64,000 nt of DNA from a virus: IMG/VR virus record IMGVR_UViG_3300044618_002782, positions 96,608 to 160,607 of that record. The stretch is one strand, 5' to 3'. Positions 4,104 through 52,253 of this stretch are shown in pieces; position 1 is the first letter of the stretch; each line of letters starts with the position of its first letter. Made by a program: the position numbers and the translations under genes. The notes under the pieces are model-generated. The model worked only from the letters and a program-made list of their open reading frames with translations. It did no database searches and was not told where the DNA came from.

Positions 4104-4122
4104 TTTTTATATTACCTAGGAA

Positions 4123-4153
4123 CCCCTCAGCTACATACTGAGGGGATTTTTTT
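4123..4153 (+). terminator. Terminator whose 3' arm doubles as the next gene's Shine-Dalgarno
   Basis: Perfect 8-bp stem CCCCTCAG/CTGAGGGG (4123-4130 with 4138-4145), 7-nt loop, then A and seven Ts. The ATG of the next gene follows at 4154. The only Shine-Dalgarno-like sequence for that gene, GAGGGGA, lies in the 3' arm of the stem. Confidence 0.8.
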
Positions 4154-4738: not shown

Positions 4739-4741
4739 CTC

Positions 4742-5317: not shown

Positions 5318-5331
5318 AGAAAAGGCAAGAT

Positions 5332-15962: not shown

Positions 15963-16727
15963 ATGGCAGACCAAACCCTAGATCCACTAAAAAAACAACT
16001 GATTGATTATGTACAACTACAGTTAGGCAGTCAAATTGTAGACGTTGAATTAGATCCTGCACACTACGAAGCAGCGTATCAGCGCACAATTGGTACTTAC
16101 CGTCAGCGTAGTCAAAATGCCTACGAAGAAAGCTATAGTTTTATGCAGTTGTTGGACAATGTAAACGAATACACTTTGCCACAAGAAGTCACACAAGTAC
16201 GGCAAATTTTTCGACGCACAATTGGATTGAGCACCGGTGGCAGTGCCAGCAGCTTTGATCCATTTGGCGCAGCAACATTAAACGTGTATCTGCTGAACTT
16301 TAACCAGTCGGGCGGCAGCCTGGCTACTTACGACTTTTATCAACAATATGTGGAGCTTGCTGCCAGAATGTTCGGCGGATACATCAACTACACATTCAAT
16401 CCTGTTACCAAAAAACTACAGCTGATTCGTGACCCTAAAGGCACTGGAGAAGTTGTCCTGCTGTGGACTTATAATCTGCGTCCAGAAATTGTATTACTGA
16501 GCGACTTTCAGATCAGTCAATGGATTCGTGACTACATGGTGGGTGCTTGTAAGTACATCATTGGTGAAGCTAGAGAAAAATTTGGTACTATTGCTGGTCC
16601 ACAAGGCGGCGGAACCTTAAACGGTGCTGCTATGAAGTCGGAAGGTCAAGCTATGATGGACAAATGCATAGAAGACCTCAAGTTGTATGTAGACGGTTCG
16701 CAACCATTGACCTTGGTAATCGGCTAA
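15963..16727 (+). CDS. 13: gp13-like neck protein
   Basis: A 254-residue protein. The N-terminal [22 protein letters not shown] with [16 protein letters not shown] and [18 protein letters not shown] is characteristic of gp13 neck proteins of T4-like aquatic phages (T4 gp13 is 309 residues). The C-terminal part ([22 protein letters not shown]) is helical. gp13 joins the portal vertex to gp14 and closes the filled head. The preceding AAGGAG and late promoter fit. Its stop overlaps by 4 nt the stop of the convergent homing endonuclease gene. Confidence 0.75.
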
Positions 16728-17359
16728 TTGTTTTTGCGAGCAGCATCACGTGCTCGCTTTTTAGCGCCAATGATTGCTCGAGTTGCGGCTGTTTGGATTC
16801 TTCCTTCTTGATTACTAGTGGCACCTCTGCCAATTTGCCATCCGTTGTTTAAGAAATTATTAACTTCTGTTAAATTGACTCGCATTGAATCTGTACTATT
16901 ATGGATCCATTTTTGATTTTTAGTGGTACCTTTTTTTGCATTAACTTGTGGCGAGTATGTTTTGCCTAAATTAATTTGCATTAGAGTTTTTTTAGTAGAG
17001 TTTGTGTGTTTAAATCCTGCATTTGATGCAATTCTTTTTGCAATAGTTTTAGGGCTTTGTTTGACTCCTGCTGCCCCATCGCCACCATCTGTTAAATTTC
17101 TAAGTATTCCTGTGCCTAAATCTTTTCGACCGTACCATCTTATTAGCCTACGTTCGATTGCTAATGCACCGATGTTAGTTAAGTTTGATTCTACAATAAC
17201 GATACGATGATAATCTGTTGGGACAATAACATTATGTTCTTTTTCCCACGCCCTGTATCGTTGTCCTTTACCGATATAATACGGTGTTAGATTACCTTTG
17301 CGTAGATATACGTAAACATAGAAACCGGGCGGATAAGTAGACAGGCTGATGCTCCTCAA
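16724..17359 (-). CDS. GIY-YIG family endonuclease (putative homing endonuclease)
   Basis: A 211-residue protein. [11 protein letters not shown] and [18 protein letters not shown] form the GIY-YIG-type core (Y-V-Y then Y-I-G-K-G), with a catalytic-type Arg (R in QRYRAW) and downstream [19 protein letters not shown]. The Lys/Asn-rich C-terminal half (about 90-211, [27 protein letters not shown]-like basic end) is probably DNA binding. There is no ATG: the frame opens with TTG at 17359, but GAGGAG lies inside it, 7 nt before an in-frame CTG at 17344, a possible true start. It is a free-standing homing gene sitting between gp13 and the exonuclease gene. Confidence 0.75.
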
Positions 17360-30168: not shown

Positions 30169-30552
30169 ATGCGAGCCAGAGAATTTGTTTCTGCTAGAAT
30201 AACCGAAACAGCAGATGCCAAGATTTCCCGCAGGCTGCAAGCGGCCACTCGCGGCCTAAATGTCTATAGTGATGCTGAACGCTGGAACGGTGATTATGTA
30301 TTGAGTCGTTTGGGCCAAGCAGTGGCCTCAACAGATGGTACGTTTGTACCTGATATTGATATGAAATCGTGGATAGGTAAAAACAAAAGTACTCATCCAT
30401 ACACTCCAGAAGAACAAGCCATGCTGAAAATGGCGTACCGGGCCATTGGTGCTGACTATACGGATCTCAACGGCGGCAACATGAACAGTGAAGAAATGTC
30501 AGAAGTCAATCGAGTTAGCCCAGTGCAGGGATTTAAAGGTTATCCCAGATGA
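30169..30552 (+). CDS. MRAREF-family putative internal protein, copy A
   Basis: A 127-residue protein. It starts MRAREFVSARITE|TADA and ends VSPVQGFKGYPR, termini shared with the next gene while the middle differs. The leader has the basic/aromatic pattern of the capsid-targeting sequence and ends in I-T-E. The core (RRLQAATRGLNVYSDAERWN, EEQAMLKMAYRAIGADYTDL) is helical and unrecognised. The stop overlaps the following start (ATGA). Confidence 0.5.
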   Translation: MRAREFVSARITETADAKISRRLQAATRGLNVYSDAERWNGDYVLSRLGQAVASTDGTFVPDIDMKSWIGKNKSTHPYTPEEQAMLKMAYRAIGADYTDLNGGNMNSEEMSEVNRVSPVQGFKGYPR

Positions 30553-30953
30553 GAGCCAGAGAATTTATTCGCGAACAACGAGATTTACCCCCTGAAAGCA
30601 AAGGACCCATGCGTTACACTTATGTGATCCCAGGGTTGAGTGCTTCCGACCCTTATGGAAACTATCGTATGGGTGTGGCAATGGCACGTGCCAGAAGCGA
30701 TTATGCCAACGAACTCAGCAGTGAAAACGAAGGAATTGATCCCTACAAGCCTGAATGGTCTGCTGAAACTGCGTTTGGTGAACATGCTGTTGTTGTGGGA
30801 TCTAGCCCGCACATTGCACAATTGATTGACCGTGCTTTGGCAATGACTGGAACACCCGGCGGCAAGCGATTAGTCAGCAGTGCTGACAGTGACGAGCCTG
30901 CTTTTGTAGCAAACAAAAGTCCTGTTCGGGCCTTTAAAGGATACCCGAGATAA
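30549..30953 (+). CDS. MRAREF-family putative internal protein, copy B
   Basis: A 134-residue tandem paralogue of the previous gene at its ends only: MRAREFIRE|Q at the start and KSPVRAFKGYPR at the end. The core (RMGVAMARARSDYANELSSE, FGEHAVVVGSSPHIAQLIDR) differs. Conserved termini around variable cores suit a family of cargoes sharing targeting signals. The stop overlaps the next start (TAATG). Function unknown. Confidence 0.5.
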   Translation: MRAREFIREQRDLPPESKGPMRYTYVIPGLSASDPYGNYRMGVAMARARSDYANELSSENEGIDPYKPEWSAETAFGEHAVVVGSSPHIAQLIDRALAMTGTPGGKRLVSSADSDEPAFVANKSPVRAFKGYPR

Positions 30954-31561
30954 TGGCCAATAACCCGCCACCATACGACAATATTACTGGCATCTCTCGT
31001 GCTGTAATGAAAGACAACGCACAAGAAACCATTGGCGCATACAATGGCGTTGCTAGACCCAGCGAATTAGTAGTCAACCAACTCACACAAGATATCTATG
31101 TAGGCAACGTCAATGGAAATCTAAATTTGGTCGCATACGGATCTGGTGTTACCAGCACCACAACATTCAACCCGCAGTTCACTGACGGATCAGGCACATT
31201 TGCTGGCGGTACTACCACAGCATCCTATGTGCGTATGGGTCCGCTGATGTATATACATGTGTATGTGGATTTTACAGGGGTTACCAACTTTGGCAGCACA
31301 GGATATCAGATTACACTGCCCACACCCGCAATAAACACATTTAGACTGGCCGGCGGCAGCCTGCATCAAACAGCCGGTGCTGGTTCTCCTGCCTTGTACC
31401 ATATTGCTGGAATCACAGACGTCATTGACAGCACCACAGTCATGAAACTGTATTATTCTGGTAGTGTCTCTGATCTAGTTTGGAAATTCAACACTCCAGC
31501 CACAGGCGCCTGGCAATCAGGCGCACACTTTGATCTTTCTGGCACATATCAAGTAGCTTAA
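30953..31561 (+). CDS. Putative virion fiber/surface protein
   Basis: A 202-residue protein. The N-terminal ISRAVMKDNAQETIGAYNG and RPSELVVNQLTQDIYVGNVN resemble the attachment segments of small fibers in T4-like phages (compare the 5332 gene: LADLQLGEVAINTYDARLYA). The C-terminal 120 residues look like a beta-sandwich (YIHVYVDFTGVTNFGSTGYQ, VMKLYYSGSVSDLVWKF). A small fiber or head fiber is most likely. It is the last gene of the late block before the leaderless nuclease gene. Confidence 0.5.
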   Translation: MANNPPPYDNITGISRAVMKDNAQETIGAYNGVARPSELVVNQLTQDIYVGNVNGNLNLVAYGSGVTSTTTFNPQFTDGSGTFAGGTTTASYVRMGPLMYIHVYVDFTGVTNFGSTGYQITLPTPAINTFRLAGGSLHQTAGAGSPALYHIAGITDVIDSTTVMKLYYSGSVSDLVWKFNTPATGAWQSGAHFDLSGTYQVA

Positions 31562-31564
31562 ATA
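31557..31564 (+). promoter_or_regulatory. Late promoter motif CTTAAATA abutting the nuclease start
   Basis: TAAATA, four bases, ATG at 31569; it overlaps the preceding stop codon. Predicted leaderless transcript; no Shine-Dalgarno. Confidence 0.55.
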
Positions 31565-31568
31565 CCAT

Positions 31569-32006
31569 ATGAAAAAACTCATCCTATTCTTACTCGTAGT
31601 GCCTTGCTTGGCACTAGCACAACCCAAACAACGACCTGGAGTGACCTATGACGCTGTGATCACCAGAGTCATAGACGGCGACACAGTGGGCATACAAGCC
31701 ACTTGGTTACCAGCACCACTCAAACAGGAACTCAGTATCCGTGTGTTCGGAGTTGACACTCCTGAAAAGGGCTTTCGTGCTCAGTGCCCCAGTGAAGCAC
31801 AGCGTGGCGAAGCAGCCACAGCGTTTACCAAACAAATGATTGCCAACTCACAAAAGCGTCAAATTGTGCTCATGGACTGGGACAAATACGGCGGGCGTGT
31901 GTTGGGCGATGTGCTGTTAAACGGTGTTAGCCTACGCCAGCAACTGATTGCCAACGGATTTGCACGTGAATACTACGGTGAAGCCAAAACATCTTGGTGC
32001 AACTAA
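31569..32006 (+). CDS. Secreted thermonuclease (staphylococcal nuclease-like)
   Basis: A 145-residue protein. A textbook signal peptide, MKKLILFLLVVPCLALA with cleavage before QPKQ, is followed by an SNase fold: ITRVIDGDTV (Ca-binding Asp), IRVFGVDTPE (catalytic Arg and Glu) and KYGGRVLGDVLL (second catalytic Arg). All residues needed for catalysis in the SNase family appear present. It should be exported by Sec to the periplasm and degrade DNA or RNA there. Late, leaderless expression is predicted. Possible roles are destroying incoming competitor DNA or scavenging nucleotides; neither can be read from the sequence. Confidence 0.85.
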   Translation: MKKLILFLLVVPCLALAQPKQRPGVTYDAVITRVIDGDTVGIQATWLPAPLKQELSIRVFGVDTPEKGFRAQCPSEAQRGEAATAFTKQMIANSQKRQIVLMDWDKYGGRVLGDVLLNGVSLRQQLIANGFAREYYGEAKTSWCN

Positions 32007-32012
32007 CTCGCC

Positions 32013-32020
32013 CGTAAATA
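32013..32020 (+). promoter_or_regulatory. Late promoter motif CGTAAATA abutting radical SAM gene 1
   Basis: TAAATA, four bases, ATG at 32025, within a short dyad CCCGTA-AA-TACGGG. Predicted leaderless. Confidence 0.55.
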
Positions 32021-32024
32021 CGGG

Positions 32025-33173
32025 ATGACGAATTTCTATTGTGCCGCACCCTGGCGCGGCCTACATATCAATCCCAGGGGCGATGTAAAAACCTGCTGTG
32101 CAGGTAACCCCAACATGTTGGGCAATCTCAATCAAAATTCAATTGTGGAAATACTCAATAGTACACAAATGAAAGAAATTAGATCCAGTTTATCGCAGGG
32201 AATCCCGCACGAGTACTGCAGTAATTGTGTACGTGCTGAAAGATTTGGTGCTGATTCAGAACGCAAGTGGCACAACAATGTCAATCCTGATTTTGATTAT
32301 GCCGCTGCCGGCACTGAATATCACTATCCAGTGATTGTGGATGTGCGGTGGAATACCACTTGTAATCTCAGTTGCAACTACTGCGGAGAGTTTTGCAGTT
32401 CAAAATGGTCTGCTATAAAAAACATACCATTCAAGTCAGGTGCCCGTCCCTACTACGATCAAGTGTGCGACTTTATTGAGCAACATCAAGAACACATTCA
32501 CGAAGTGGCATTAGTCGGCGGCGAACCCTTGTTGTTGCCAGAAAATGAACGCCTGCTGGATGTTATACCTGCCGATGCAATTGTTACGCTGATTACCAAC
32601 CTCAATGTCAATTTAGAAAATAACAAAATTTTCAAGAAGTTGACAACCAGGAATAAGGTAGGCTGGAGCATGAGTTTTGATAACGTCGGAGATCGATTTG
32701 AGTATGTTCGACACGGCAGCAATTGGAATCTGTTAAAGCAAAATTTAGCTACAGTCAAAGATCTCATGACCACACAAGGGCAGTGGGGCGGTATACATGC
32801 AGTTTATAATATTTACAATGCTACTCGTGTGTGTGAATTGAGAGAGTTTGCCGAAGAACAAGGTGTTAGTGTGTTATGGCAAAACTTATTCCAGCCTGAA
32901 TATCTGGATCCGTTTTTACACAACGGACAATTGGCTGAGTTAGCTGCAGCCGAGATCGAGCGTTTCTATAATCTAGGAATTACTCGTGACATGGATCGCA
33001 ATTTTTTTGATCAAGCTTTAAGAACCTATCAAGGCAAAATTGGATCAACATCTACTATCGCTGCCAAGTTCCGACAACACATTGTTGTTAACGAAACTCG
33101 ATATCACCCAGACAAGGCCGGCGAATTTGTTGAACTATGGCCTGAACTGAAATTTTTAATAGACACTCAATAA
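32025..33173 (+). CDS. Radical SAM protein with SPASM/twitch-like cysteines (copy 1)
   Basis: A 382-residue protein. The radical SAM core begins at CNLSCNYC (Cx3Cx2C binding the catalytic 4Fe-4S cluster), followed by the GGEPLL SAM motif. The N-terminal CAAPWRGLHINPRGDVKTCC and a later CSNCVRAE provide extra cysteines, as in proteins where a SPASM/twitch auxiliary cluster precedes the core. Such enzymes modify peptides or sugars by radical chemistry. It is followed 3 nt later by an SGNH-like gene; an equivalent pair exists at 55751-57645. Substrate unknown: virion protein, host surface glycan or a small peptide are candidates. Confidence 0.8.
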   Translation: MTNFYCAAPWRGLHINPRGDVKTCCAGNPNMLGNLNQNSIVEILNSTQMKEIRSSLSQGIPHEYCSNCVRAERFGADSERKWHNNVNPDFDYAAAGTEYHYPVIVDVRWNTTCNLSCNYCGEFCSSKWSAIKNIPFKSGARPYYDQVCDFIEQHQEHIHEVALVGGEPLLLPENERLLDVIPADAIVTLITNLNVNLENNKIFKKLTTRNKVGWSMSFDNVGDRFEYVRHGSNWNLLKQNLATVKDLMTTQGQWGGIHAVYNIYNATRVCELREFAEEQGVSVLWQNLFQPEYLDPFLHNGQLAELAAAEIERFYNLGITRDMDRNFFDQALRTYQGKIGSTSTIAAKFRQHIVVNETRYHPDKAGEFVELWPELKFLIDTQ

Positions 33174-33176
33174 ATT

Positions 33177-33977
33177 ATGACTAAAGATACAGGATATACC
33201 ATAAACATCGCACCATCACTTAGTGATCAACCACCATTTCAACACAATTATTTTTACAAAGGATCGACTATACATTGGAATGGGTCAGACCAGTTAGAAC
33301 TTTATGAAAAAAACATGCAAACAAGTTCCGCTTATATCTTATTGCAGAAACACGGATGGATAAATTCGACCATAGAATATTCGTACAACAGTCATGGATT
33401 CAGATGTTTAGAATTTGATGATAAGCCGTGTGCGCTAGCATTGGGATGTAGTTTTACTGAAGGAACAGGTTTACATCTGTATCAAACTTGGTCTCGCCGT
33501 TTATCTTCAATGCTAGATTTTACAGTGCGGAATTTAGGAAGCGGCGGCGGCACAATTGATACAGTATTTAGAATATTGGAACACTACATTGATCGGTTGA
33601 ATACAAAATATATTTTTCTGTTGATACCTCCTGTAAATAGACTTGAGTATTGCGACATCGAAAATGAATTTCCTGTAATACACCCATCCAATATTAGGAA
33701 TCATAAAAGTTTTGCCAAGGAATGGTTATCTCAACCGTTTAACGGAATTTATAACACAAAGAAAACCTTACTTGCTATAGAACAATTATGTGCAAAAGCT
33801 AACATTCCGCTATTTACATATTGCTCTCATGATGCACTTTCCGAGTATATTCATAATGACACTAGAAACACTGATTTTGCCAGAGATTTAATGCATCCAG
33901 GAGTTTCATATCAGGAATACGTGGCAAACATAATGTATTCAAAATTTCAATCTTTCAATAAAGCACACTATGGGTAA
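33177..33977 (+). CDS. SGNH/GDSL hydrolase-like protein (copy 1, paired with radical SAM)
   Basis: A 266-residue protein. Block I is ALGCSFTEGTG (nucleophile Ser in G-C-S-F), block II Gly lies in RNLGSGGGTIDT, and block V DLMHPG provides Asp and His. That is the SGNH arrangement of esterases and acyl-sugar hydrolases or acetyltransferase partners. The region is visibly A+T richer than gp17 next to it, suggesting transfer. It follows the radical SAM stop by 3 nt with no clear Shine-Dalgarno, so coupled translation is likely. The 3' end overlaps gp17 by 8 nt. Deacylation of a glycan is a reasonable guess only. Confidence 0.65.
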   Translation: MTKDTGYTINIAPSLSDQPPFQHNYFYKGSTIHWNGSDQLELYEKNMQTSSAYILLQKHGWINSTIEYSYNSHGFRCLEFDDKPCALALGCSFTEGTGLHLYQTWSRRLSSMLDFTVRNLGSGGGTIDTVFRILEHYIDRLNTKYIFLLIPPVNRLEYCDIENEFPVIHPSNIRNHKSFAKEWLSQPFNGIYNTKKTLLAIEQLCAKANIPLFTYCSHDALSEYIHNDTRNTDFARDLMHPGVSYQEYVANIMYSKFQSFNKAHYG

Positions 33978-35520
33978 CAACACAGAATCGGCACTGGTCA
34001 AGTCCCCACATCAGAGAAATCTGTATACCGACCAACAAATACAAGAATTCATGGCTTGTGCTGACCCAGTAATGGGTCCTTTGTATTTTATGGACAATTT
34101 CTTTTTTATACAGCATCCTACCCGCGGGCGCATGTTGTATCACCCATTTCCGTATCAAACTCGACTGATTGAAGTATATCATAACTATCGTTACAGCATA
34201 TCGATGATGCCAAGGCAAACAGGCAAGTCAACTAGTGCTGCTGGATATCTCTTATGGTATGCTATGTTTGTGCCAGATTCTACCATACTGGTAGCAGCAC
34301 ACAAGTACACAGGCTCTCAAGAAATCATGCAGCGTGTCCGCTATGCTTATGAAAGTGTTCCAGATCATATACGTGCCGGGGCCACAAACTACAACAAAGG
34401 CTCGATAGAATTTGACAACGGAAGTCGTATTGTGTCAGCTACCACAACTGAAAACACCGGTCGAGGTATGAGTATTTCGCTCTTGTATGCTGACGAATTT
34501 GCATTTGTGCGTCCCACTATTGCCACAGAATTCTGGACTTCGATATCACCTACCTTGGCAACAGGTGGTAAGGCCATTATTACATCGACGCCAAACTCAG
34601 ACGAAGACCAGTTTGCCTTACTATGGAAAGGTGCCAATAAGTGTGAAGACGAGTATGGCAATCCAACTGAAGTGGGACAGAACGGATTCCGAGCCTATCG
34701 AAGCTTTTGGAATGAGCACCCCGACAGAGACGAAACCTGGGCTCAACAACAACGTGCTGCTTTAGGAGTTGATCGTTTCCGTAGAGAAATGGATTGCGAA
34801 TTCATTATTGCAGACGAAACACTGATTGCTCCTACTACACTAATTGACTTAGAAGGATGTAATCCTTTGTATAAGACCGGCGAAGTGCGATGGTATAAAA
34901 AACCCTCTGCAGATCGCATCTATGTAGTAGGACTTGATCCCAGTCTGGGTACTGGGGGAGATCCTGCTGCAATACAGGTATTCGAAGCAAACTCAACTGA
35001 GCAGGTAGCCGAATGGCGACACAACCGCACTGATATTCCATCACAAATTCGCATCTTAGCCGACATTATTCGACACATCAACGATGTAGTGCGTGATCCT
35101 AAAAGTATCTATTACAGTGTGGAAAACAATTCAATCGGCGAAGCTGCTCTAATCAGCATTGCTGAATACGGCGAAGAAAACATACAGGGCTATTTCTTAA
35201 GTGAGCCTGGAAAAAATCGCAAAGGATTCAACACATCAAACAAGCCCAAATTGGCAGCTTGTGCAAAATTCAAGCATCTGATAGAAAGCAATCGAATGAC
35301 AATTTCCAGTCCCAGTCTTGTAACCGAATTGAAGAATTTTGTAGCACACGGTGTCGGCTATGCAGCTAAACCAGGCGAAACTGACGATTTGATCATGGCA
35401 ACTTTGTTGGTAACACGCATGCTGCAGGTACTGCAAAGCTATCACAGTGAACTAGACACTCAAATGCGAGATCACCAAGACAGCATCATTGAACCTTTGC
35501 CGTTCATTATGTCAATGTAA
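33970..35520 (+). CDS. 17: Terminase large subunit gp17
   Basis: A 516-residue protein. The ATPase half has Walker A MMPRQTGKSTSAAGYLLWY and Walker B SLLYADEFAF, with coupling motif IITSTPN. The nuclease half has VGLDPSLGTGGDPAA (first Asp), YYSVENNSIGEAAL and AKPGETDDLIMATLL (last acidic pair). This is the packaging motor and headful nuclease of T4-like phages. T4 gp17 has 610 residues; the N-terminal part is shorter here. Its start lies within the end of the SGNH gene and no separate promoter is seen. Confidence 0.95.
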   Translation: MGNNTESALVKSPHQRNLYTDQQIQEFMACADPVMGPLYFMDNFFFIQHPTRGRMLYHPFPYQTRLIEVYHNYRYSISMMPRQTGKSTSAAGYLLWYAMFVPDSTILVAAHKYTGSQEIMQRVRYAYESVPDHIRAGATNYNKGSIEFDNGSRIVSATTTENTGRGMSISLLYADEFAFVRPTIATEFWTSISPTLATGGKAIITSTPNSDEDQFALLWKGANKCEDEYGNPTEVGQNGFRAYRSFWNEHPDRDETWAQQQRAALGVDRFRREMDCEFIIADETLIAPTTLIDLEGCNPLYKTGEVRWYKKPSADRIYVVGLDPSLGTGGDPAAIQVFEANSTEQVAEWRHNRTDIPSQIRILADIIRHINDVVRDPKSIYYSVENNSIGEAALISIAEYGEENIQGYFLSEPGKNRKGFNTSNKPKLAACAKFKHLIESNRMTISSPSLVTELKNFVAHGVGYAAKPGETDDLIMATLLVTRMLQVLQSYHSELDTQMRDHQDSIIEPLPFIMSM

Positions 35521-36995: not shown

Positions 36996-37724
36996 ATGAT
37001 ACCATATACATATCTCATCAGATGGACCCAGCTAAACATTAGTTACTACGGCGTTAGATACGCTCAAGATTGCGACCCAGGTGATCTTTGGAATCCATAC
37101 AAAACCTCATCCAAATACGTAGCAGAATTTATTGCTCGATACGGCGAGCCTGACGTTATCCAGGTGCGTAAAACATTTACGGACGTTTCTGTTGCTCAAA
37201 ACTGGGAGCATCGTGTATTGAAACGGGCAAGGGCAGTTAGTAGTGATAAATGGTTGAACAGAACGGATAACAAGTCTATTGCTCCGCTATATGGAGTAGA
37301 CCATCCGCACTACGGTAAAAAAGGTGAAGCTCATCATTCCTACGGTAAACCAAATACAGGAGCCTCAAAGGCACAAACGCAAAAGTGGGCTAATTTTGTT
37401 GGTCAGCATCCTTGGAGTGATCCAGAATTTATATCTCGTAATGTAGCAAGCAAAAGTGGTGATAATCATCATATGAAAAAAGCAGATGTAGCAGAGAAAA
37501 TATCTGGTAAAAATAACTGGATATACCAAAAGCCTGGTGCGTTAGAAGCAAGAAGCAAACAGTTTATAGAAATGAACAAGGCTCGCAAAGGCACGCACTA
37601 CCGTAGGGTAGACTGTAAGTATTGTGGCAAAGATTACTCCTCTGTACAAATCAACCAGCACGAAAAGAGATGCGAAACGAATTTAGCCAGATTAGTAGCA
37701 AACACGAAACAATGTCGTGTATAA
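36996..37724 (+). CDS. Putative homing endonuclease with NUMOD3-like motifs and C-terminal zinc finger
   Basis: A 242-residue protein. The N-terminal YTYLIRWTQLNISYYGVRYA, then SKYVAEFIARYGEPDVIQVRK, is a GIY-YIG-like core variant seen in phage endonucleases. The middle has NUMOD3-type DNA-binding repeats (HPHYGKKGEAHHSYGK, SGDNHHMKK, SGKNNW). The C-terminus CKYCGKDYSSVQINQHEKRC is a C2HC zinc finger. It is a free-standing mobile nuclease gene inserted between the unknown gene at 35532 and gp32. No Shine-Dalgarno is evident. The catalytic activity is inferred from motifs. Confidence 0.65.
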   Translation: MIPYTYLIRWTQLNISYYGVRYAQDCDPGDLWNPYKTSSKYVAEFIARYGEPDVIQVRKTFTDVSVAQNWEHRVLKRARAVSSDKWLNRTDNKSIAPLYGVDHPHYGKKGEAHHSYGKPNTGASKAQTQKWANFVGQHPWSDPEFISRNVASKSGDNHHMKKADVAEKISGKNNWIYQKPGALEARSKQFIEMNKARKGTHYRRVDCKYCGKDYSSVQINQHEKRCETNLARLVANTKQCRV

Positions 37725-43930: not shown

Positions 43931-44674
43931 ATGTATAATTTCTCTCTCCCTTACGAATATCAAGGCCACAGTCAATTTGGAGAAACTGGAATAATAGAAC
44001 TAATATTGACTGGACTTAAAGATCCTCATAAAACTTTTGTTGAAATTGGATTCGGTACTGGCAATCAGAATATGACCATGGATCTATTAGATCGCGGATA
44101 TACTGGAGTTGGCGTCGATGGCAGAGATTGGGATCTAGATACACCTAATCGTTGGGGTAATTCTATAACTAAAATACAACAAATGATTACAGTTGATGAT
44201 GTTGTTGATTTACTAAAACCAGTAGCAGATTGGCAATGTGATTTTTTTAGTCTCGACATAGATAGTTTTGATTACGAAGTTGCAAAATTATTATTAGAAT
44301 CTGGATTTAAACCAGCTGTTGTATGTGTAGAAATTAATCCAAATTTTGGGTCAACTACAAAAGCCAGTTTCCCGTACATACCTAATGTTAAGAAAAAAAC
44401 TTATACACGCCGACATTTTTGCGGCTCTAGTCTGAGCAAGTATACGCATTTATGGGAAACACATGGACTGAAATTTTTTACTCTAAACAGCATCAGCTAT
44501 CACAACGCATTTTACTACGATCCTGCTAGGGTTTCGTTGCCGGATGTACCAGTTATAACGCAAATTCAAGACAATCAGTTTGATCCGGTAATTTACAACG
44601 AAACTGAATTGAGAAAAATGATAGCAGAACACGCCTTCTGGAAAGATTATCAAGACGTTATTTTTAAGACATAA
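43931..44674 (+). CDS. FkbM-like SAM-dependent methyltransferase
   Basis: A 247-residue protein. FVEIGFGTGNQNMTMDLLDR is motif I of class I methyltransferases, YTGVGVDGRDWD carries the acidic residue contacting ribose, and FFSLDIDSFDYEVAKLLLES matches the FkbM-type D-x-D-S-x-D-Y motif. FkbM proteins methylate sugar hydroxyls. It sits in the glycan island and is A+T richer than gmd. The substrate is presumably a glycan. Confidence 0.6.
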   Translation: MYNFSLPYEYQGHSQFGETGIIELILTGLKDPHKTFVEIGFGTGNQNMTMDLLDRGYTGVGVDGRDWDLDTPNRWGNSITKIQQMITVDDVVDLLKPVADWQCDFFSLDIDSFDYEVAKLLLESGFKPAVVCVEINPNFGSTTKASFPYIPNVKKKTYTRRHFCGSSLSKYTHLWETHGLKFFTLNSISYHNAFYYDPARVSLPDVPVITQIQDNQFDPVIYNETELRKMIAEHAFWKDYQDVIFKT

Positions 44675-44697
44675 ATTAATTTTCTACGGACACCTCA

Positions 44698-45516
44698 ATG
44701 AAATACTCAGTAGTCACTACATTTAATCACAGCGGTTACGAACGCTATGCCAGCCGCATGATTGACACCTTCTTGCAAAACTGGCCTAGAGAAATTGATC
44801 TATACGTCTACACTGAAGATTGTGCAATACATCAAAGCGCACCCAATCTTCATGTTAGAGATTTACATGCTGTAAGTCCTGAAATTGTAGCCTTCAAGCA
44901 ATGCTGGGGTAATGATCCTAGAGCACGTGGCCTGATTGCTACTGGGCCAGAAGATCGCAAAGGTAAAGCACCGGGTATAGGTTTTCGTTGGGACGCTATT
45001 AGATTCAGTCACAAAGCATATTCAGTATTTCACAGCGCGGCCAATTGCAATGCTGATGTGTTGTTTTGGATGGACGCAGACATGGTGTGTCACACACCTA
45101 TCACTACAGAATTTATTGACAGTCAAATGCCGCCCAAGATTGGCTTGGCCTATCTAGGACGCGAACGAAAGTTTAGCGAATGCGGTCTGTACGGTATGAA
45201 CCTACGTGATAACATTACATTGAACTGGCTTAAAGAGTTTCAGTTAGCGTATGATTCAGGACGTCTTATGACCATGGCTGAGTGGAATGACTGCTGGGTA
45301 TTTGATGAAACTCGAAACGAAGTACAAGCGGCCCACCCTAAGTGGCGTCAGCTAAACTGGAGTCACGGGTTGATCAAAGGAGAAGGGCATCCTTTGATCA
45401 ACACTGCTTGGGGTGCATACCTTGACCATCTCAAAGGCAAACGCAAAGAAACTGGCCGTAGTCCAGCTAAAGATCTTATTCAGCCTCGAAACGAAAGTTA
45501 TTGGACAGTAAATTAA
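44698..45516 (+). CDS. Glycosyltransferase with D-x-D motif, paralogue of the gene at 45513
   Basis: A 272-residue protein: YSVVTTFNHSGYERYASRMI and FLQNWPREIDLYVYTEDC form the nucleotide-binding N-terminus, VLFWMDADMVCH gives the D-x-D metal site, and LNWSHGLIKGEGHPLINTAW closes the domain. The convergent gene (45513-46283, minus) has the same layout (FLKHWPKELTLTCYVEE, WIVWLDADVI), so the two arose by duplication with inversion and their 3' ends overlap by 4 nt. Sugar donor unknown. Confidence 0.7.
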   Translation: MKYSVVTTFNHSGYERYASRMIDTFLQNWPREIDLYVYTEDCAIHQSAPNLHVRDLHAVSPEIVAFKQCWGNDPRARGLIATGPEDRKGKAPGIGFRWDAIRFSHKAYSVFHSAANCNADVLFWMDADMVCHTPITTEFIDSQMPPKIGLAYLGRERKFSECGLYGMNLRDNITLNWLKEFQLAYDSGRLMTMAEWNDCWVFDETRNEVQAAHPKWRQLNWSHGLIKGEGHPLINTAWGAYLDHLKGKRKETGRSPAKDLIQPRNESYWTVN

Positions 45517-46283
45517 AGATGGTCTGCCTGGACGCAATCAGGGTCAAAACACATATCATCTACATTGGATTTACTATATTCGGCCTTTGAGTGCTTGGCT
45601 TTGTGATGAATAAGATACTCGCCAAGCACTGTATGCCGCAAGGGTGTTTTATATCCTTTCTGGAATCCTGTACATAAATCGTTCACCATAAGTGGTTGTA
45701 CCACATTTAATGCAGCCCCAAGTACATCGTTGTCGTAAAATCTACGTAGATCTTGATAATCTCTTTCGTGATATCTTCTGCAGTATTCGGCTCTGAACTG
45801 ATTAAATTTTTCGTGCTGAGTATTAACTGCAAATATTCCTGTTTCAGGACACAACCATTTTCCAGGTTTGCCATCTTTGCTTGTGTCGTAGGTTACACCC
45901 ATGTACATGCTTAAATATTCAGGCAATAACAAATCAGTCAACACTGACAACGGTAGTTTCTTAGCAGTAATCACATCAGCATCCAGCCATACTATCCAAT
46001 CAGCAGTTCTGTGATTCATGGCATGCATAAAACTGTATGCTTTTTTGGCAAACTTTTTGTCTGACTGTCTTAGTGTTGTATCCGCCTGATATCGAGCGTA
46101 ATCTGGATCCAACTCAGAAAAATCAATCTGCTTAATTCTTTTACTGCGAGTAGATAATTTAAATTCCTCTACATAGCAGGTAAGAGTCAGCTCTTTGGGC
46201 CAGTGCTTGAGAAAACTTGCCATACTATCCTTGCCAATGAGATCGTAATATCGTTGATTAAAACTTGTAATAACCTGTATCAT
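45513..46283 (-). CDS. Glycosyltransferase with D-x-D motif, paralogue of the gene at 44698
   Basis: A 256-residue protein: VITSFNQRYYDLIGKDSMAS, KKAYSFMHAMNHRTADWIVW then LDADVITAKKLP (D-x-D), and GKWLCPETGIFAVNTQHEKF. It is the last gene of a five-gene minus-strand operon (49504 to 45513) in which each start overlaps the previous stop by 4 nt. The role in glycan assembly is inferred from fold and context. Confidence 0.7.
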   Translation of the reverse strand: MIQVITSFNQRYYDLIGKDSMASFLKHWPKELTLTCYVEEFKLSTRSKRIKQIDFSELDPDYARYQADTTLRQSDKKFAKKAYSFMHAMNHRTADWIVWLDADVITAKKLPLSVLTDLLLPEYLSMYMGVTYDTSKDGKPGKWLCPETGIFAVNTQHEKFNQFRAEYCRRYHERDYQDLRRFYDNDVLGAALNVVQPLMVNDLCTGFQKGYKTPLRHTVLGEYLIHHKAKHSKAEYSKSNVDDMCFDPDCVQADHL

Positions 46284-47245
46284 TTAATTGCCCATCCTTT
46301 CATATGCGCCCAGCACTCGCCCGATTTTAACTCGTCGTGACTCCAATGAACCTGCGAAATTTTTTCTATCCATTGTTGCCGATCAGGCATGAGTGGATTT
46401 TCAATTCTAAAAATATCACTGCAAGCAACTTCTTTTGCTTGGCTTCGTTCTGGATCAGTTACAAATACCGGAACACCTTCTATTGCTGCTGCTACACCTG
46501 GGCTAGAGTTATGACTAACTACAGCCCAGCACTGTTTAAAATCGCGAGCAAGACTAGTACCTGACTCACTTAGGTGTACATTTAACAGCCTTCTTCCGAC
46601 ACAAAGTTTCAATAATCTTTCGCAGTATTTTACAGCTCTTCTATCGCCCGGGTGTGGTCTAATCCTAATAGGTCTGTCCGAATACTTTCTTATCTCCGTA
46701 ATAGTTTTAATAGCCCAGTCTAATACGTCCCACCCTGCCATACTCCAACCACCATCTCTCTGTAAGCATAGTAAAATATGATCACCTCGGGTTCTCCAGT
46801 TGGCCAACTTGACTCCCAACTGTTTTTGTATTTCTACCCATCTGACCGGATCAGGATTTTGGTTGCAATATTCTCCTGTGTTGGGAAATATTCCGTCGTA
46901 GCTGTAGCGTAACCAATATCCAGGATTGTTTGTATTTTTATACAGAAACAGATTTGAATCTGCTATGATAGTACGATTGTTTGATTGTTGTTGTCCGTCG
47001 AGAATGTCTTGTCGCAATTGCAAATGCGATGCAGTTTTTCCTTGTTCGTGTACCCATCCTAAGATTACAGCCACTGGACTTGGCTGATATACTGACGAAT
47101 CTTCTACAATGCCTTCGTCACCGCATCTGGATACACCTTGAACAAAGTATCTAAGTGTATTGCTTTTATCTTGTGCTTTTTGCAAAGATTCAGGAGTATA
47201 TATTTCTTTTTTGGGCAATGTGGCTGTATAACTTACGACTTTCAT
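46280..47245 (-). CDS. Capsule-synthesis-like glycosyltransferase, paralogue 2
   Basis: A 321-residue protein: PIRIRPHPGDRRAVKYCERL and HNSSPGVAAAIEGVPVFVTD are the two core motifs of the capsule polysaccharide (KpsC/KpsS) family, and LMPDRQQWIEKISQVHWSHDE is the shared C-terminus. The N-terminus (ATLPKKEIYTPESLQK) is longer than in paralogue 1. It probably uses a nucleotide sugar made in this island. Overlaps of 4 nt with both neighbours indicate strict co-translation. Confidence 0.65.
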   Translation of the reverse strand: MKVVSYTATLPKKEIYTPESLQKAQDKSNTLRYFVQGVSRCGDEGIVEDSSVYQPSPVAVILGWVHEQGKTASHLQLRQDILDGQQQSNNRTIIADSNLFLYKNTNNPGYWLRYSYDGIFPNTGEYCNQNPDPVRWVEIQKQLGVKLANWRTRGDHILLCLQRDGGWSMAGWDVLDWAIKTITEIRKYSDRPIRIRPHPGDRRAVKYCERLLKLCVGRRLLNVHLSESGTSLARDFKQCWAVVSHNSSPGVAAAIEGVPVFVTDPERSQAKEVACSDIFRIENPLMPDRQQWIEKISQVHWSHDELKSGECWAHMKGWAIK

Positions 47246-48054
47246 TCTTGCATCATCCTAAATGCTGTGCCATTCTGAAGCTCTTTCACATGATATTGAC
47301 CATATGCCATACTGTGACACCAGGCATCTAATAGGTCTTGATCGGGCCAAAACGGATTGTCTATTGTGTCAAGCTTGGTATTTGCAACAGGCCGGGCCAC
47401 ATGACTTGGTGCTAGTACAAATGCCGGCACTCCTGCAAGTATAGCTTCTACTGCAGCAACACTGTTGAATGTCACTACGGCATGTACATCTTGTGTTAGT
47501 AATCGATTCAGTGGAGTGGTTACAATTCTGTCAATTCTTTTTGGTGCTCGTTGCCTTACTTCGATTGGCCGATCCGTTAATGTTTTAAGTTGAGCAACAG
47601 TTTCATCTACCCATGCAGCCTGATCAATGCCGTAGAACCTACAAGGTTTTTCGTCTGGTGCTGCCACAATAATTTTTGATCCTGTTCGACGAGGATGTGC
47701 AGTAATACCCAATGCTTGCCATCTATCTGCTGGACGTTGTTTTATTTCATTATGCTGCAAATCATTTTTTACTATTCTATGATAAAGTTTTGAACCGTGA
47801 CTATTCTTACTACTGACACTGTTGCCCACATACCCTGAATCAACATACCAAAAGTCGTGCTTACCAGCCAAACACTTGTGCATAACTTTATATTTGAGTA
47901 TTCCCCGCAGTACAACTTTTCTATGATCTACTTCGACATCATAATGAAAATCAAAGTAATCACCGTCAGTTGGTTCTGTGCCAGCACTACGAGCCAGCAT
48001 GTTGATATATTCGTCTTGATTATTTTTACTTAGGAATACCCAATCTTCGTTCAT
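47242..48054 (-). CDS. Capsule-synthesis-like glycosyltransferase, paralogue 3 (diverged)
   Basis: A 270-residue protein. TFNSVAAVEAILAGVPAFVL corresponds to the N-S-x-A/G...G-x-P motif, and FWPDQDLLDAWCHSMAYGQY to the shared C-terminus, but the R-P-H-P motif of its paralogues is replaced by VRQRAPKR. That may alter donor binding or mark a specialised enzyme. It lies between the GT8-like gene and paralogue 2. Confidence 0.55.
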   Translation of the reverse strand: MNEDWVFLSKNNQDEYINMLARSAGTEPTDGDYFDFHYDVEVDHRKVVLRGILKYKVMHKCLAGKHDFWYVDSGYVGNSVSSKNSHGSKLYHRIVKNDLQHNEIKQRPADRWQALGITAHPRRTGSKIIVAAPDEKPCRFYGIDQAAWVDETVAQLKTLTDRPIEVRQRAPKRIDRIVTTPLNRLLTQDVHAVVTFNSVAAVEAILAGVPAFVLAPSHVARPVANTKLDTIDNPFWPDQDLLDAWCHSMAYGQYHVKELQNGTAFRMMQE

Positions 48055-48740
48055 TTAATATCTCTCTGTAAGCAATACTCTGCAAGCATTCGTTCACGAT
48101 GCCACTCATCTGCCATTGGAGTAGTAGCAAAATCGTGGAAGCAAGGAGCGCCTAAGGTATAATGCAACAAGTCTGCATTGCAGTTAGGACCATACTCGTC
48201 TGGCAACCAATTCCATTCTGCAGGTAAATCACCAATTTTTTCATCTTTGATCCAGGTAAAACGATGTAGTTCTGCACCCGTGGATCGTTGAACAAACTCC
48301 GGTGTTAGGCATTGATTAGCTGAGCTCTCACAATTCCAGATAATAACACTTGACCAGTTTTTGCGAGGGTAGTTTTCGTTCTTTGAACCCAGATACTTTT
48401 CTTTCATGCATGTTTCGTAGTTGTGTTTAACTACCTGTACATCATAATGATTCTGCCGCCAGTCCCAAAGCTCTGCAATGTCACTACGCACAATCATATC
48501 ACCATCAATAAAAATAGCATGACCGGTGTAATCCATCAAGTGCGGCACTAAGAATCTGCTGTAGATAAACTGATTGCTACCATCTGTGTGAGTTTCGGTA
48601 TAGTCGGTGAACAAGTTTAGTGCCAGCGGTATGATGCTGACAGGTCTACTGGCATGTCTAATAATGCTATTGGCACACACATGATAAGCAACAGCTTCAC
48701 GAGGATCATAACCAATAAAAATAGGTATCAGTTTACTCAT
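48051..48740 (-). CDS. Family 8-like glycosyltransferase
   Basis: A 229-residue protein: IFIGYDPREAVAYHVCANSI is the usual opening of phage and bacterial GT8-like transferases, FIYSRFLVPHLMDYTGHAIF then IDGDMIVRSDIAEL gives the D-x-D metal site, and LPAEWNWLPDEYGPNCNADL then LLHYTLGAPCF forms the C-terminal catalytic region. The enzyme retains the donor sugar stereochemistry in this family. It is the second gene of the minus operon, directly after the cytidylyltransferase/PMI fusion. Confidence 0.8.
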   Translation of the reverse strand: MSKLIPIFIGYDPREAVAYHVCANSIIRHASRPVSIIPLALNLFTDYTETHTDGSNQFIYSRFLVPHLMDYTGHAIFIDGDMIVRSDIAELWDWRQNHYDVQVVKHNYETCMKEKYLGSKNENYPRKNWSSVIIWNCESSANQCLTPEFVQRSTGAELHRFTWIKDEKIGDLPAEWNWLPDEYGPNCNADLLHYTLGAPCFHDFATTPMADEWHRERMLAEYCLQRDIK

Positions 48741-49504
48741 GAGAATTTTCTCTCAATATCATCTTCCTCGCATCGGTCTCCGTATTGTATTTCTACAATT
48801 TTTAATGGATCGCTTTGTTCGTTAACGAGTTGATGCCATTTTTCTGACTCTATATGTAAATATTCGTGGCGATGATAATGTCCTTGAAATTCAGCATCGC
48901 TGGCCATGTTCAAAGTCATTACTGTTGCAACTCCGGCACTGACCAACCAGAATTCTGATCTTCCTTTGTGTCTTTGCATACTGAGTGCCGCACCCGGATC
49001 CACTGTGAGTTCTTTGACTTTAACTCCCGGTGCTTCGTGCAGTACACGATAATATCCCCAGGGTCGGCGTGTTTGAGGAGCCTTCCATTCTTGCAGTATC
49101 CACGAACTACTGTTTCTTTTATCTTGACCACCTACGCCAAATACAAACTCGACGTTGTCATCTTTGATATCTTGTTCTAGTATATTTTCAGTTGTGCGAT
49201 CACCACCGTTGGCAAAAATAATACGGTCATTGGGATAGCTCTGTCTTACCATCCATAATGCATTTCGTGCAGAACCATCACTGTCGTCAAAATCAATTAC
49301 AAAGTTGACATTTTGCATATTTCGTACTACGGCGACACGTTCTTTTAACGGCATAAATGCTCGACCTTTTTTTCTTTCTAGCCACGAATCTGAGTTGATG
49401 CCCACAATTAAAAGATCTCCCAATTTGCCGGCAGCCTGCAAGTAGGAGATATGGCCGGAGTGTACAGGATCAAATCCGCCAGTGACAAGTACAATAGTTT
49501 TCAT
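48737..49504 (-). CDS. Fusion: HxGH nucleotidyltransferase + type II phosphomannose isomerase-like cupin
   Basis: A 255-residue protein from ATG 49504. Residues 1-130 form a cytidylyltransferase-like domain: VTGGFDPVHSGHISYLQAAG with the HxGH motif at 15-18, VGINSDSWLERKKGRAFMPL, and NSSSWIL near the position of the second nucleotide motif. Such domains (HldE C-terminal, TagD type) activate heptose-1-P or glycerol-3-P. Residues about 145-255 match the isomerase domain of ManC/AlgA: RRPWGYYRVL, VKELTVDPGAALSMQRHKGR, SEFWLVSAGVATV, EKWHQLVNEQSDPLKIVEIQ and EEDDIERK. In ManC this domain is fused to a different nucleotidyltransferase, so the pairing here is unusual. It heads the minus operon. Confidence 0.8.
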   Translation of the reverse strand: MKTIVLVTGGFDPVHSGHISYLQAAGKLGDLLIVGINSDSWLERKKGRAFMPLKERVAVVRNMQNVNFVIDFDDSDGSARNALWMVRQSYPNDRIIFANGGDRTTENILEQDIKDDNVEFVFGVGGQDKRNSSSWILQEWKAPQTRRPWGYYRVLHEAPGVKVKELTVDPGAALSMQRHKGRSEFWLVSAGVATVMTLNMASDAEFQGHYHRHEYLHIESEKWHQLVNEQSDPLKIVEIQYGDRCEEDDIERKFS

Positions 49505-49509
49505 AACAA

Positions 49510-49517
49510 TATTTATA
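49510..49517 (-). promoter_or_regulatory. Consensus late promoter TATAAATA (minus) for the glycan operon
   Basis: Exact 8/8 T4 late match on the minus strand, five bases before the ATG at 49504. The predicted +1 is exactly the A of ATG, with no Shine-Dalgarno. Confidence 0.65.
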
Positions 49518-49529
49518 TGTATACATAAT

Positions 49530-49537
49530 GGTAAATA
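49530..49537 (+). promoter_or_regulatory. Late promoter motif GGTAAATA (plus), divergent
   Basis: TAAATA, four bases, ATG at 49542. Together with the minus-strand site this makes a 37-bp divergent late promoter region, leaderless in both directions. Confidence 0.55.
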
Positions 49538-49541
49538 CATT

Positions 49542-50108
49542 ATGGAACATTTTTATCAAACAGTAGAAGGATTTATGGGACCAAGAAACATTATGATGTT
49601 TGACTTGGTTATAAAAGATTTCCCTCAAGCAGGAACCTGGGTTGAGATAGGATCCTGGATGGGACGCAGCACAGCATATTGTGCAGTTGAACTATTAAAT
49701 TGCAATAAAATGGGAAAATTCTACTGCATAGATACCTGGCAAGGAGGCGATACTCTTGAAAATCATCAATATGTATTAGAAGGAAAACTCAAACAGGTAT
49801 TTCTTGATAATATTGCACCGGTGGCTGATTATATTACGCCCATTGAGAGTCTAAGCTGGGCAGCCGCTGACCAATTTGCTGATAGCAGCGTGGATTTTTG
49901 TTACGTTGATGCATTGCACACATACGAAGCAGTCATGCAAGATTTAACAGCTTGGTGGCCTAAAATACGCCCCGGCTCGTGGTTTGCTGGCGACGACTAT
50001 ACCAAAGGTTGGCCTGGCGTCCAGCAAGCAGTACAGCAGTTTTTTGGTGAACTCGGTGTAAGATACGATCGATGTGGACGTTGTTGGATAGTTAAAAAGC
50101 CTGAATAA
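49542..50108 (+). CDS. Class I SAM-dependent methyltransferase
   Basis: A 188-residue protein from ATG 49542, chosen by promoter position. TWVEIGSWMGRSTAYCAVEL is motif I, KFYCIDTWQGGDTLENHQYV carries the second motif, and DFCYVDALHTYEAVMQDLTA then PKIRPGSWFAGDDY matches the Methyltransf_24 layout. Members methylate sugars or small molecules. It leads a plus-strand set of methyltransferases and glycosyltransferases to 53066. Confidence 0.75.
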   Translation: MEHFYQTVEGFMGPRNIMMFDLVIKDFPQAGTWVEIGSWMGRSTAYCAVELLNCNKMGKFYCIDTWQGGDTLENHQYVLEGKLKQVFLDNIAPVADYITPIESLSWAAADQFADSSVDFCYVDALHTYEAVMQDLTAWWPKIRPGSWFAGDDYTKGWPGVQQAVQQFFGELGVRYDRCGRCWIVKKPE

Positions 50109-50109
50109 A

Positions 50110-50745
50110 ATGCCAAATTGGTTAGACACATATAAACATAATTACTACCCTCGTCTTGATTCCAATCTCAGTGGAGCCAAACGTGGACTTGTCGAAGGAC
50201 TAGGACAACGAGCCCGTGGCTTTCAATTGATGTTCGAGTTGTTGCTGGCCAAAACTCAAAGTCAGTATCACATTATCGAAACAGGTACCTGTCGAAATCC
50301 AGGAAATTGGAAAGATGGGCAGAGTGCAGTGATATTCACAGATTTTGTTCAGCACACAGGAGGATCACTGCGTAGTGTAGACATAGATCCAGATGCCTGT
50401 GCAGCAGCACGTAAACACATCACCAGTGGTCTTTTTCAAGTGACCTGCAGCGACAGTGTGCAATGGCTAGAACAACAGACAGATCTGGACCAGGTTGATC
50501 TTTTTTATCTCGACAGCTACGATGTAAAATGGAACAACGACTCTGCCAGTGCCGAACATCATTTACGCGAATTCCAAACAATTGAATCCAGAATTCAGCC
50601 AGGCACAGTAGTAGCCATTGACGACAATGCTAGGTTTTTAAACAATAATGGTCGCACTGGCAAAGGACGACGGATAGTGGAATATTTAGAATCCAAAGGA
50701 ATACAGCCGTTATATGATGCTTATCAAATAATATATCAATTATGA
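50110..50745 (+). CDS. Class I SAM-binding methyltransferase-like protein
   Basis: A 211-residue protein: HIIETGTCRNPGNWKDGQSA (motif I variant), GGSLRSVDIDPDACAAARKH (acidic SAM contact), VDLFYLDSYDVKWNN and QPGTVVAIDDNARFL. The loop E-T-G-T-x-x is less glycine-rich than typical, but the D-x-D-P that follows supports SAM binding. It begins 1 nt after the previous stop and overlaps the next gene by 4 nt. Likely a glycan-modifying enzyme. Confidence 0.65.
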   Translation: MPNWLDTYKHNYYPRLDSNLSGAKRGLVEGLGQRARGFQLMFELLLAKTQSQYHIIETGTCRNPGNWKDGQSAVIFTDFVQHTGGSLRSVDIDPDACAAARKHITSGLFQVTCSDSVQWLEQQTDLDQVDLFYLDSYDVKWNNDSASAEHHLREFQTIESRIQPGTVVAIDDNARFLNNNGRTGKGRRIVEYLESKGIQPLYDAYQIIYQL

Positions 50746-51533
50746 TAGTTGACACATTCATGTTCAATGACGAGTTTGACATGTTAGATATACATCTGGC
50801 AATCACAGATTCGTACGTGGATCGTTGGATTATATTGGAAGGCAACCGAACCTGGAGTGGAATATCAAAACCTTACTATCTTTTAAACTGCCTGGACAAA
50901 TATGCAAAATACGGTGATAGAATACAACTAATCAGTCTAGACATACCCGACGGTTATGTGAATTGGCAGTGTGAAAATTACAGTAGAGCCAGTTTGCAGC
51001 AAGGAATCGATTGTCTAGATGACGAAGATATTGTTTTGCACGGGGATCTGGATGAAATATTAGACCCGACAAAATTTAGCAGTATAGTTGATTTGATGGA
51101 TCTGCATGATCGTCCTGTAAATTGTTCTCTAGAAATGTTTATATATAGATTTGATCAACAAACTGATCGTCGATGGAGCGGAACTGTAGTGGCCCGAAAA
51201 CACATGTTTGATAATCCTCAACAGTTATATAAAGGCATCAACATAAAGAAAAAAGATCGTAGTCATTGTGTAGCATATCCAGACACTGCAGGCTGGCACT
51301 GGACCTGGATAGGATCAGACCAACGAATACGCAGCAAGGTTGCAAGCTGTATTGAAAGCCAACATCGAGACCCAGAACAGGTGTTGAACTCTTTCAAACA
51401 GTTAGACACAGCAGCAGCTATAAATCACAAGTGTACCTCAACCACAGTTGAATACACTTACCCTAACGAAGTAAACAAAATACTTGAGCAGTATCCTCAA
51501 TATTGGAACATACCGTCATGTCAGACACAATAA
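50742..51533 (+). CDS. Glycosyltransferase family 17-like
   Basis: A 263-residue protein. IVDTFMFNDEFDMLDIHLAI, YVDRWIILEGNRTWSGISKP, DEDIVLHGDLDEIL (D-x-D) and AGWHWTWIGSDQRIRSKVAS are the hallmarks of GT17 (beta-1,4-N-acetylglucosaminyltransferase-like) enzymes, which bacteria and phages also use. ATGA overlap with the preceding gene. Acceptor unknown. Confidence 0.8.
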   Translation: MIVDTFMFNDEFDMLDIHLAITDSYVDRWIILEGNRTWSGISKPYYLLNCLDKYAKYGDRIQLISLDIPDGYVNWQCENYSRASLQQGIDCLDDEDIVLHGDLDEILDPTKFSSIVDLMDLHDRPVNCSLEMFIYRFDQQTDRRWSGTVVARKHMFDNPQQLYKGINIKKKDRSHCVAYPDTAGWHWTWIGSDQRIRSKVASCIESQHRDPEQVLNSFKQLDTAAAINHKCTSTTVEYTYPNEVNKILEQYPQYWNIPSCQTQ

Positions 51534-52219: not shown

Positions 52220-52253
52220 AGCCCACTAAGTTAAAGGATACCTTTATAAACAA

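Follow-up and report, generated by a model that had tools for sequence, protein, structure and literature searches.

On balance, the two genes located directly upstream of the terminase gene of a large freshwater phage, which encode a radical SAM enzyme (rSAM1) and an SGNH-like protein (SGNH1), probably supply tailoring enzymes to a large phage glycan-decoration system, whose target would be virion sugars or, as a second choice, the host envelope. The pair lies in a stretch of 64,000 nucleotides (the window) from a source record of 160,607 bases, and is a side branch of a widely conserved, apparently undescribed multi-rSAM system situated beside tail-fibre genes. The analysis establishes the identities of the genes, their conserved residues, and, for SGNH1, the predicted fold; their order recurs in related phages, and the main cluster is syntenic with glycosyltransferase (GT)-like genes and with a tail-fibre operon. 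It is this last synteny that favours the virion as the target.

Identity of rSAM1 and SGNH1

Both open reading frames (ORFs) are present on the plus strand, 3 nt apart, with rSAM1 at 32025-33173 and SGNH1 at 33177-33977. The 3' end of SGNH1 (33977) overlaps the start of gp17 (33970-35520, plus strand), the terminase large subunit (TerL) gene and fixed right-hand neighbour, which was identified by tblastn to annotated TerL genes and has its best match (53%) in the Pseudomonas phage PA5oct group of jumbo phages. The arrangement described in an earlier note on this DNA, an rSAM gene and then an SGNH gene directly before gp17, was thus confirmed. The gp17 locus does not adjoin the main tail-fibre operon. 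The same note had placed the pair in A+T-richer DNA. This is true of SGNH1 (35% GC) and of the second pair described below (rSAM2, 35%; SGNH2, 32%); it does not apply to rSAM1, whose 42% compares with 44% in the window as a whole. The late promoter that it assigned to the pair was not found: the T4-type late promoter TATAAATA is absent from positions 30362-32413, exact or with one mismatch, and none lies upstream of rSAM1. With at most one mismatch, TATAAATA occurs at 108 sites on both strands of the window versus 64.6 expected, so T4-type late promoters may serve the phage, though not before rSAM1.

The 382-aa rSAM1 protein has an N-terminal SPASM/twitch region and a radical SAM core. It scored 208.9 bits, and rSAM2 318.4 bits, against the NCBIfam family NF033640 (N_Twi_rSAM, "twitch domain-containing radical SAM protein"), for which the curated cut-off is 170 bits, and Pfam SPASM was matched at residues 6-68, in agreement with the type first proposed. 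In the rSAM1 alignment, the CxxxCxxC cysteines C113, C117, and C120 are invariant, as are C6, C24, C25, C65, and C68. All 597 family ORFs longer than 330 aa keep the radical SAM motif, and 441 of the 453 phage members the N-terminal SPASM/twitch cysteine pattern. Because core and N-terminal cysteines are retained, rSAM should, by prediction, be an active radical enzyme carrying an auxiliary cluster. In its N-terminal part, the rSAM profile is similar to the twitch domain found in the aminoglycoside enzyme BtrN (E 5e-4). Most characterised SPASM/twitch enzymes have peptides as substrates, and the weaker profile matches of rSAM in the NCBIfam search include peptide maturases.

A scan of IMG/VR yielded 125 relatives of rSAM1, of which 80 were kept (70-98% identical). 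No match was found in 50,697 phage records by near and protein searches with rSAM1, SGNH1, and the cluster protein u373. For rSAM2 or another rSAM of the genome, the matches came solely from distant Vibrio jumbo phages and from one marine single-cell virus record. Variant architectures were also seen. Single ORFs with two tandem N_Twi_rSAM domains are found at L190:9354-11810 (818 aa) and L113:10239-12869 (876 aa), and one rSAM of the conserved cluster (L094:12453-14159, L175, L181, L233, and others) has an extra N-terminal region of ~165 aa, giving ORFs of ~560 aa. Two more radical-SAM-like ORFs, at L263:325-2240, fall below the N_Twi cut-off.

SGNH1 (266 aa) matched no Pfam family. Its AlphaFold2 model, built from a 26-sequence alignment, has a mean pLDDT of 89 and, by Foldseek, shows the three-layer SGNH fold of a GDSL/SGNH serine hydrolase or acyltransferase-like protein, matching PDB structures of the SGNH domains of TesA/TAP, CE3 esterase, and OatA (probability 1.00; E values of 8e-6 or weaker; target-normalised TM ~0.5) as well as viral SGNH proteins. 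S92 (block I), G124 (block II), and D237 and H240 (block V, DxxH) are invariant in 36 of 36 relatives, so that the Ser-Asp-His hydrolase-like character reported earlier stands, and the loss of catalytic residues that had been named as a refutation is not seen for the triad. Like TesA/TAP, CE3, and OatA, SGNH1 has the fold, the block I Ser, the block II Gly, and the block V DxxH; unlike them, it has an additional N-terminal region of ~80 aa and, in block III, no conserved oxyanion-hole Asn, for which reason we call it SGNH-like. In the place of this Asn the family has Pro-Pro-x-x-Arg, with Arg155 invariant, which suggests that the oxyanion hole, or the way in which the substrate is gripped, has changed. 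The SGNH1 fold also matched UniProt A0A6J5LTW5 (E 9e-10), a viral protein of 602 aa named as a Radical_SAM protein and, as a lead, a possible rSAM-SGNH fusion.

A multi-rSAM cluster beside the tail-fibre operon

The genome encodes nine N_Twi_rSAMs above the NF033640 cut-off (rSAM1, rSAM2, and seven more), six of them in a main cluster (L094, C1 22-42 kb). The title of NF033640 describes domain content only, without a function, and to this we add phage and cellular neighbourhoods. Also in the L094 cluster are GT-like genes, u373, two SGNH-like genes, a kinase/cytidylyltransferase-like gene, a NodU-type carbamoyltransferase (Pfam Carbam_trans, 4e-49), and a gene that we take, from its motifs, to be amidinotransferase-like, for which the profile search gave no match. 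A profile scan of IMG/VR identified at least 565 related stretches, and the cluster order was read in the best 80 loci. In most of these 80 it is GTu165 > rSAM > GTx > rSAM > rSAM > rSAM, followed by optional GT, SGNH, or OX genes and then by rSAM > u373 > carbamoyltransferase. About five rSAMs share a gapless cluster with glycosyltransferases and a NodU-type carbamoyltransferase. All 16 large related contigs (214-364 kb; 13 once near-duplicates are set aside) carry 7-16 N_Twi_rSAMs. Vibrio phage K566, a phage of the isolate collection, carries four rSAMs, between which lie three genes that are GT-like by motifs. Outside the clusters, an N_Twi_rSAM of our phage (L096:3377-4516, C1 ~75 kb) is wedged between two core-type genes, presumably, by recognition, those for the counterparts of the T4 gp47 and gp46 recombination nuclease subunits.

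In nine of nine phages, our own plus eight more, the same block lies directly before the cluster. It consists of large fibre-like proteins, of which one matches a virion structural PHROG (6e-10), and of u102, two GT-A-like genes, u114, and GTu165. The glycosyltransferase reading is in part based on motifs, since the AlphaFold2 model of GTx was poor (pLDDT 55), with GT-B/fucosyltransferases as its best but not significant Foldseek matches (E 0.07), and Pfam gave no match for GTu165 or for the two small GT-A-like genes. Comparing the profiles of OX and of GTx with PDB sequences gave nothing useful. GTu165 is 165 aa long here (L094:19429-19926) versus 307-322 aa in eight relatives (L254-L261), and so looks truncated in this genome.

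The window contains further glycan-related genes. Genes that resemble methyltransferases and glycosyltransferases are densely packed into an island at 43931-53066; at its end, upstream of the second pair, an FkbM methyltransferase and a GT8-like glycosyltransferase occupy 51503-53066 on the plus strand (Pfam Methyltransf_21, 3e-23; PHROG glycosyltransferase, 1e-24). At 48737-49540, a sugar nucleotidyltransferase (cytidylyltransferase) is fused to a cupin/mannose-6-phosphate isomerase C-terminal domain, and a glycosyltransferase-like protein assigned by HMM to the GTx family, the same family as the fixed member of the rSAM cluster, is encoded at 60454-61587 (plus strand). A collagen-like tail fibre of 1328 aa is encoded at 7481-11467 on the plus strand (PF01391, E 1e-99; PHROG tail fibre) and is a plausible target of hydroxylation and glycosylation. 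Homing-endonuclease-like ORFs were noticed at 36996-37724 (plus strand; weak PHROG homing endonuclease match) and 16724-17359 (minus strand).

These surroundings also bear on the reading in which the protein itself is modified, the rSAMs altering tail-fibre side chains, the OX-like protein hydroxylating them, the glycosyltransferases glycosylating them, and SGNH trimming acyl groups. We consider it rather unlikely. It would fit the SPASM/twitch homology and the peptide maturases among the weaker NCBIfam matches, the constant synteny with the tail-fibre operon, the collagen-like fibre, and an rSAM-OX fusion (below), but cellular homologues lie in sugar-type clusters and not beside fibre genes, and no RiPP precursor fits the cluster junctions, though the fibre itself could be the substrate. 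Of 528 cluster junctions, 95% overlap or leave at most 10 nt and 14 exceed 90 nt, and rSAM1 and SGNH1 are 3 nt apart; a RiPP cluster was rejected because this leaves no room for an encoded precursor, and no precursor gene was found.

A variable cassette between rSAM1 and gp17

Nearly all of the 80 rSAM1 relatives sit just upstream of gp17, and gene content was counted in 48 dereplicated rSAM1-gp17 intervals. The order is constant, namely rSAM-A, then optionally OX, rSAM-B, and SGNH, and then gp17: 14 intervals are empty, 29 contain SGNH, 20 contain OX, and 13 contain rSAM-B, which is followed by SGNH in 13 of 13. SGNH is missing from 19 of the 48. The conserved gp17-side gene is rSAM1, with or without SGNH, while SGNH is one of the genes that may or may not stand between the two. 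OX matched no profile; 21 relatives share H108-x-D110, H170, and R182, and from this H-x-D/H/R signature we take it to be 2OG-Fe(II) oxygenase-like. In L058 and L059, rSAM and OX are fused into one protein of 564 aa.

A search that started from SGNH, and so did not presuppose rSAM, gave 62 dereplicated viral relatives; an rSAM is immediately upstream in 32 of them and within 3 kb in 43. This cassette can contain GTx as well, which in L295 is fused to SGNH. At a single locus of this sample (L308), OX is placed after SGNH. In L285, L291, L322, and L325, near rSAMs, an ORF of 198-206 aa precedes one SGNH and an ORF of 192-207 aa precedes a second. Genome-wide in large phages, SGNH is adjacent to rSAM in 3 of 20 cases versus 0.95 expected, and within 3 kb in 7 of 20 versus 2.6; outside the gp17 locus, the adjacency is thus weak, being modestly above chance. 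In Mantel comparisons, SGNH distances correlated with those of gp17 (r 0.56) as well as with those of rSAM1 (r 0.51), which makes their co-inheritance ordinary linkage. A special co-inheritance of rSAM1 and SGNH1, one of the checks set out beforehand, was rejected on these grounds.

The second pair

The pair said to recur at 55751-57645 is present in the same order, as a distant relative and not as a copy. On the plus strand, rSAM2 (55751-56872, 373 aa) overlaps by 4 nt with SGNH2 (56869-57645, 258 aa), a distant SGNH-like protein with a weak match to Pfam Lipase_GDSL_2. The right-hand neighbour, at 57642-59132 on the plus strand, is by recognition what we take to be a UvsW-like helicase. Identity is 25% between rSAM1 and rSAM2 and 24% over 111 aa between SGNH1 and SGNH2, so a recent duplication of the pair was rejected. 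By hhalign, SGNH2 matched the SGNH1 family with 93.4% probability (E 2.5e-7), which supports a common superfamily. The main cluster in L094 contains a third rSAM>SGNH-like pair (4627-6045 and 3854-4648, minus strand), and the match of the L094 SGNH-like protein to the SGNH1 family is weaker (66% probability, E 5.6e-5).

Relatives of rSAM2 that are 58-77% identical were found upstream of the UvsW-like helicase in L098, L100, L101, and L103, with no gene between the two in the first three and one different gene in L103. None of these four diverged relatives, all with a readable gene 3' of rSAM2, has an SGNH there; in L100, a further GDS-type ORF follows the helicase. We conclude that rSAM2 is what stays constant at this place and that SGNH2 was inserted locally. 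The recurrence, which had been put forward as an argument for a working system, does not prove a fixed pair.

Bacterial relatives and the link between the two families

In a scan of GTDB genomes, the N_Twi_rSAM family was found in Bdellovibrionota, Bacteroidota, and other lineages. In 17 genomes with both families, chosen for rSAM, 16 of the 58 SGNH homologues detected with the phage profile are within 5 kb of an N_Twi_rSAM versus 0.42 expected, with nine genomes contributing neighbours; the Poisson P of 3e-20 assumes independent matches, though the genomes are related. Because the genomes were picked for rSAM, and because surface-polysaccharide loci in general may attract both families, this points to shared neighbourhoods and not to a private pair. 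At L109 and L134, the neighbours include a carbamoyltransferase and, from sequence reading, GT, epimerase, and PhyH-type (2OG-oxygenase) genes.

Taken together, the pattern at the gp17 locus and the enrichment in bacteria speak for a genuine association of rSAM with SGNH. An obligate pair was rejected, given the intervals and rSAM2 relatives without SGNH and the weak genome-wide adjacency. What remains of the recurring module in the earlier note is therefore that the families associate and are often neighbours, in viruses and in bacteria, among glycan-type genes; a self-contained two-gene module is not supported, given the empty intervals and the few adjacent cases in large phages. Weak genome-wide adjacency and equal tracking of gp17 argue for SGNH as one member of a set of tailoring parts that can be exchanged for each other. 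The same observations, with the 19 intervals and the diverged copy-2 relatives that lack SGNH, could also be explained if rSAM1 and SGNH1 were unrelated accessory genes at an insertion hotspot beside gp17, their adjacency being functionally meaningless. This we regard as quite unlikely in view of the independent bacterial enrichment, the fixed order rSAM > OX > rSAM-B > SGNH with its 13 of 13, and the fusions among the same parts (rSAM-OX and GTx-SGNH).

Comparison with known systems

Radical SAM cassettes have been mentioned in passing as a variable addition to the host-recognition hypervariable cluster of pelagimyophages, whose glycosyltransferases were proposed to act on the host envelope (PMC7029224). 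As in that cluster type, glycosyltransferases, identified partly by motif, lie beside the tail-fibre operon in 9/9 phages; unlike in it, about five rSAMs in fixed order are accompanied by u373 and the carbamoyltransferase in most of the best 80 loci, and dispersed rSAM/OX/SGNH cassettes are present too. In the jumbo cyanophage S-SSM6a, a cluster of carbamoyltransferases and 2OG-oxygenases was proposed to decorate capsular polysaccharide or to make a metabolite (PMC7824862). Our phages likewise combine a carbamoyltransferase with 2OG-oxygenase-type genes, but the halogenase and phosphatases of S-SSM6a were not seen here, and the terms "radical SAM," "SGNH," and "GDSL" are absent from the text of that paper (PMC7824862). 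Our literature search, which covered open-licence papers, retrieved no account of an rSAM and SGNH phage system, a multi-rSAM cluster, or rSAM/OX/SGNH cassettes.

The least probable reading, that the cluster makes a carbamoylated and guanidinylated sugar- or cyclitol-like metabolite by an aminoglycoside-like logic, with rSAM1 and SGNH1 tailoring it, draws on the carbamoyltransferase and the gene amidinotransferase-like by motifs beside the rSAMs, the BtrN-like N-terminal profile, and the metabolite or capsule decoration proposed by Iyer et al. (PMC7824862), but is opposed by a cluster in which no scaffold-making enzyme was recognised and which holds several glycosyltransferase-like genes and is contiguous with the tail-fibre operon in every phage compared.

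Proposed function

In the glycan-decoration system that we favour, rSAM1 would carry out a radical SAM step on a sugar carbon, for example a dehydrogenation, epimerisation, or deoxygenation, and SGNH1, a predicted esterase/acyltransferase, would add or remove an acyl group. Their partners would be the phage glycosyltransferases, the 2OG-oxygenase-like protein, and the NodU-type carbamoyltransferase. The substrate would most readily be sugars on the tail-fibre or other virion proteins of the phage itself, with the host envelope as second choice, and the benefit may lie in receptor binding, in shielding, or in blocking rival phages. Besides the synteny, this reading is favoured by the nine rSAMs of the genome, the fixed cluster order, the rSAM-OX and GTx-SGNH fusions, the bacterial neighbours, Vibrio phage K566, and the glycan island of the window. 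Against it stand the peptide substrates of most characterised SPASM/twitch enzymes, the glycosyltransferase assignments made by motif, the weak SGNH-rSAM adjacency away from gp17, and the position of the gp17 locus apart from the main tail-fibre operon. More tentatively, and with more doubt than conviction, the 7-16 rSAM paralogues per phage, about five of them in fixed order, may form a deeply conserved, undescribed viral pathway to a novel radical-modified, carbamoylated, and acyl-edited tail-fibre glycan, diversified by mini-cassettes of rSAM, OX, GTx, and SGNH at gp17 and elsewhere and with a cellular counterpart in Bdellovibrionota and Bacteroidota.

Radical SAM enzymes are oxygen-sensitive and costly, and freshwater phages keep 7-16 copies of one N_Twi_rSAM subfamily despite this cost. 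If glycans are what these enzymes modify, then viruses would be making new sugars for surfaces by means of radical chemistry. The cluster, together with the related one of Vibrio phage K566, would in that case offer a testable route to the function of NF033640 in bacteria. It would also have a bearing on how large phages change their receptor binding or exclude their rivals.
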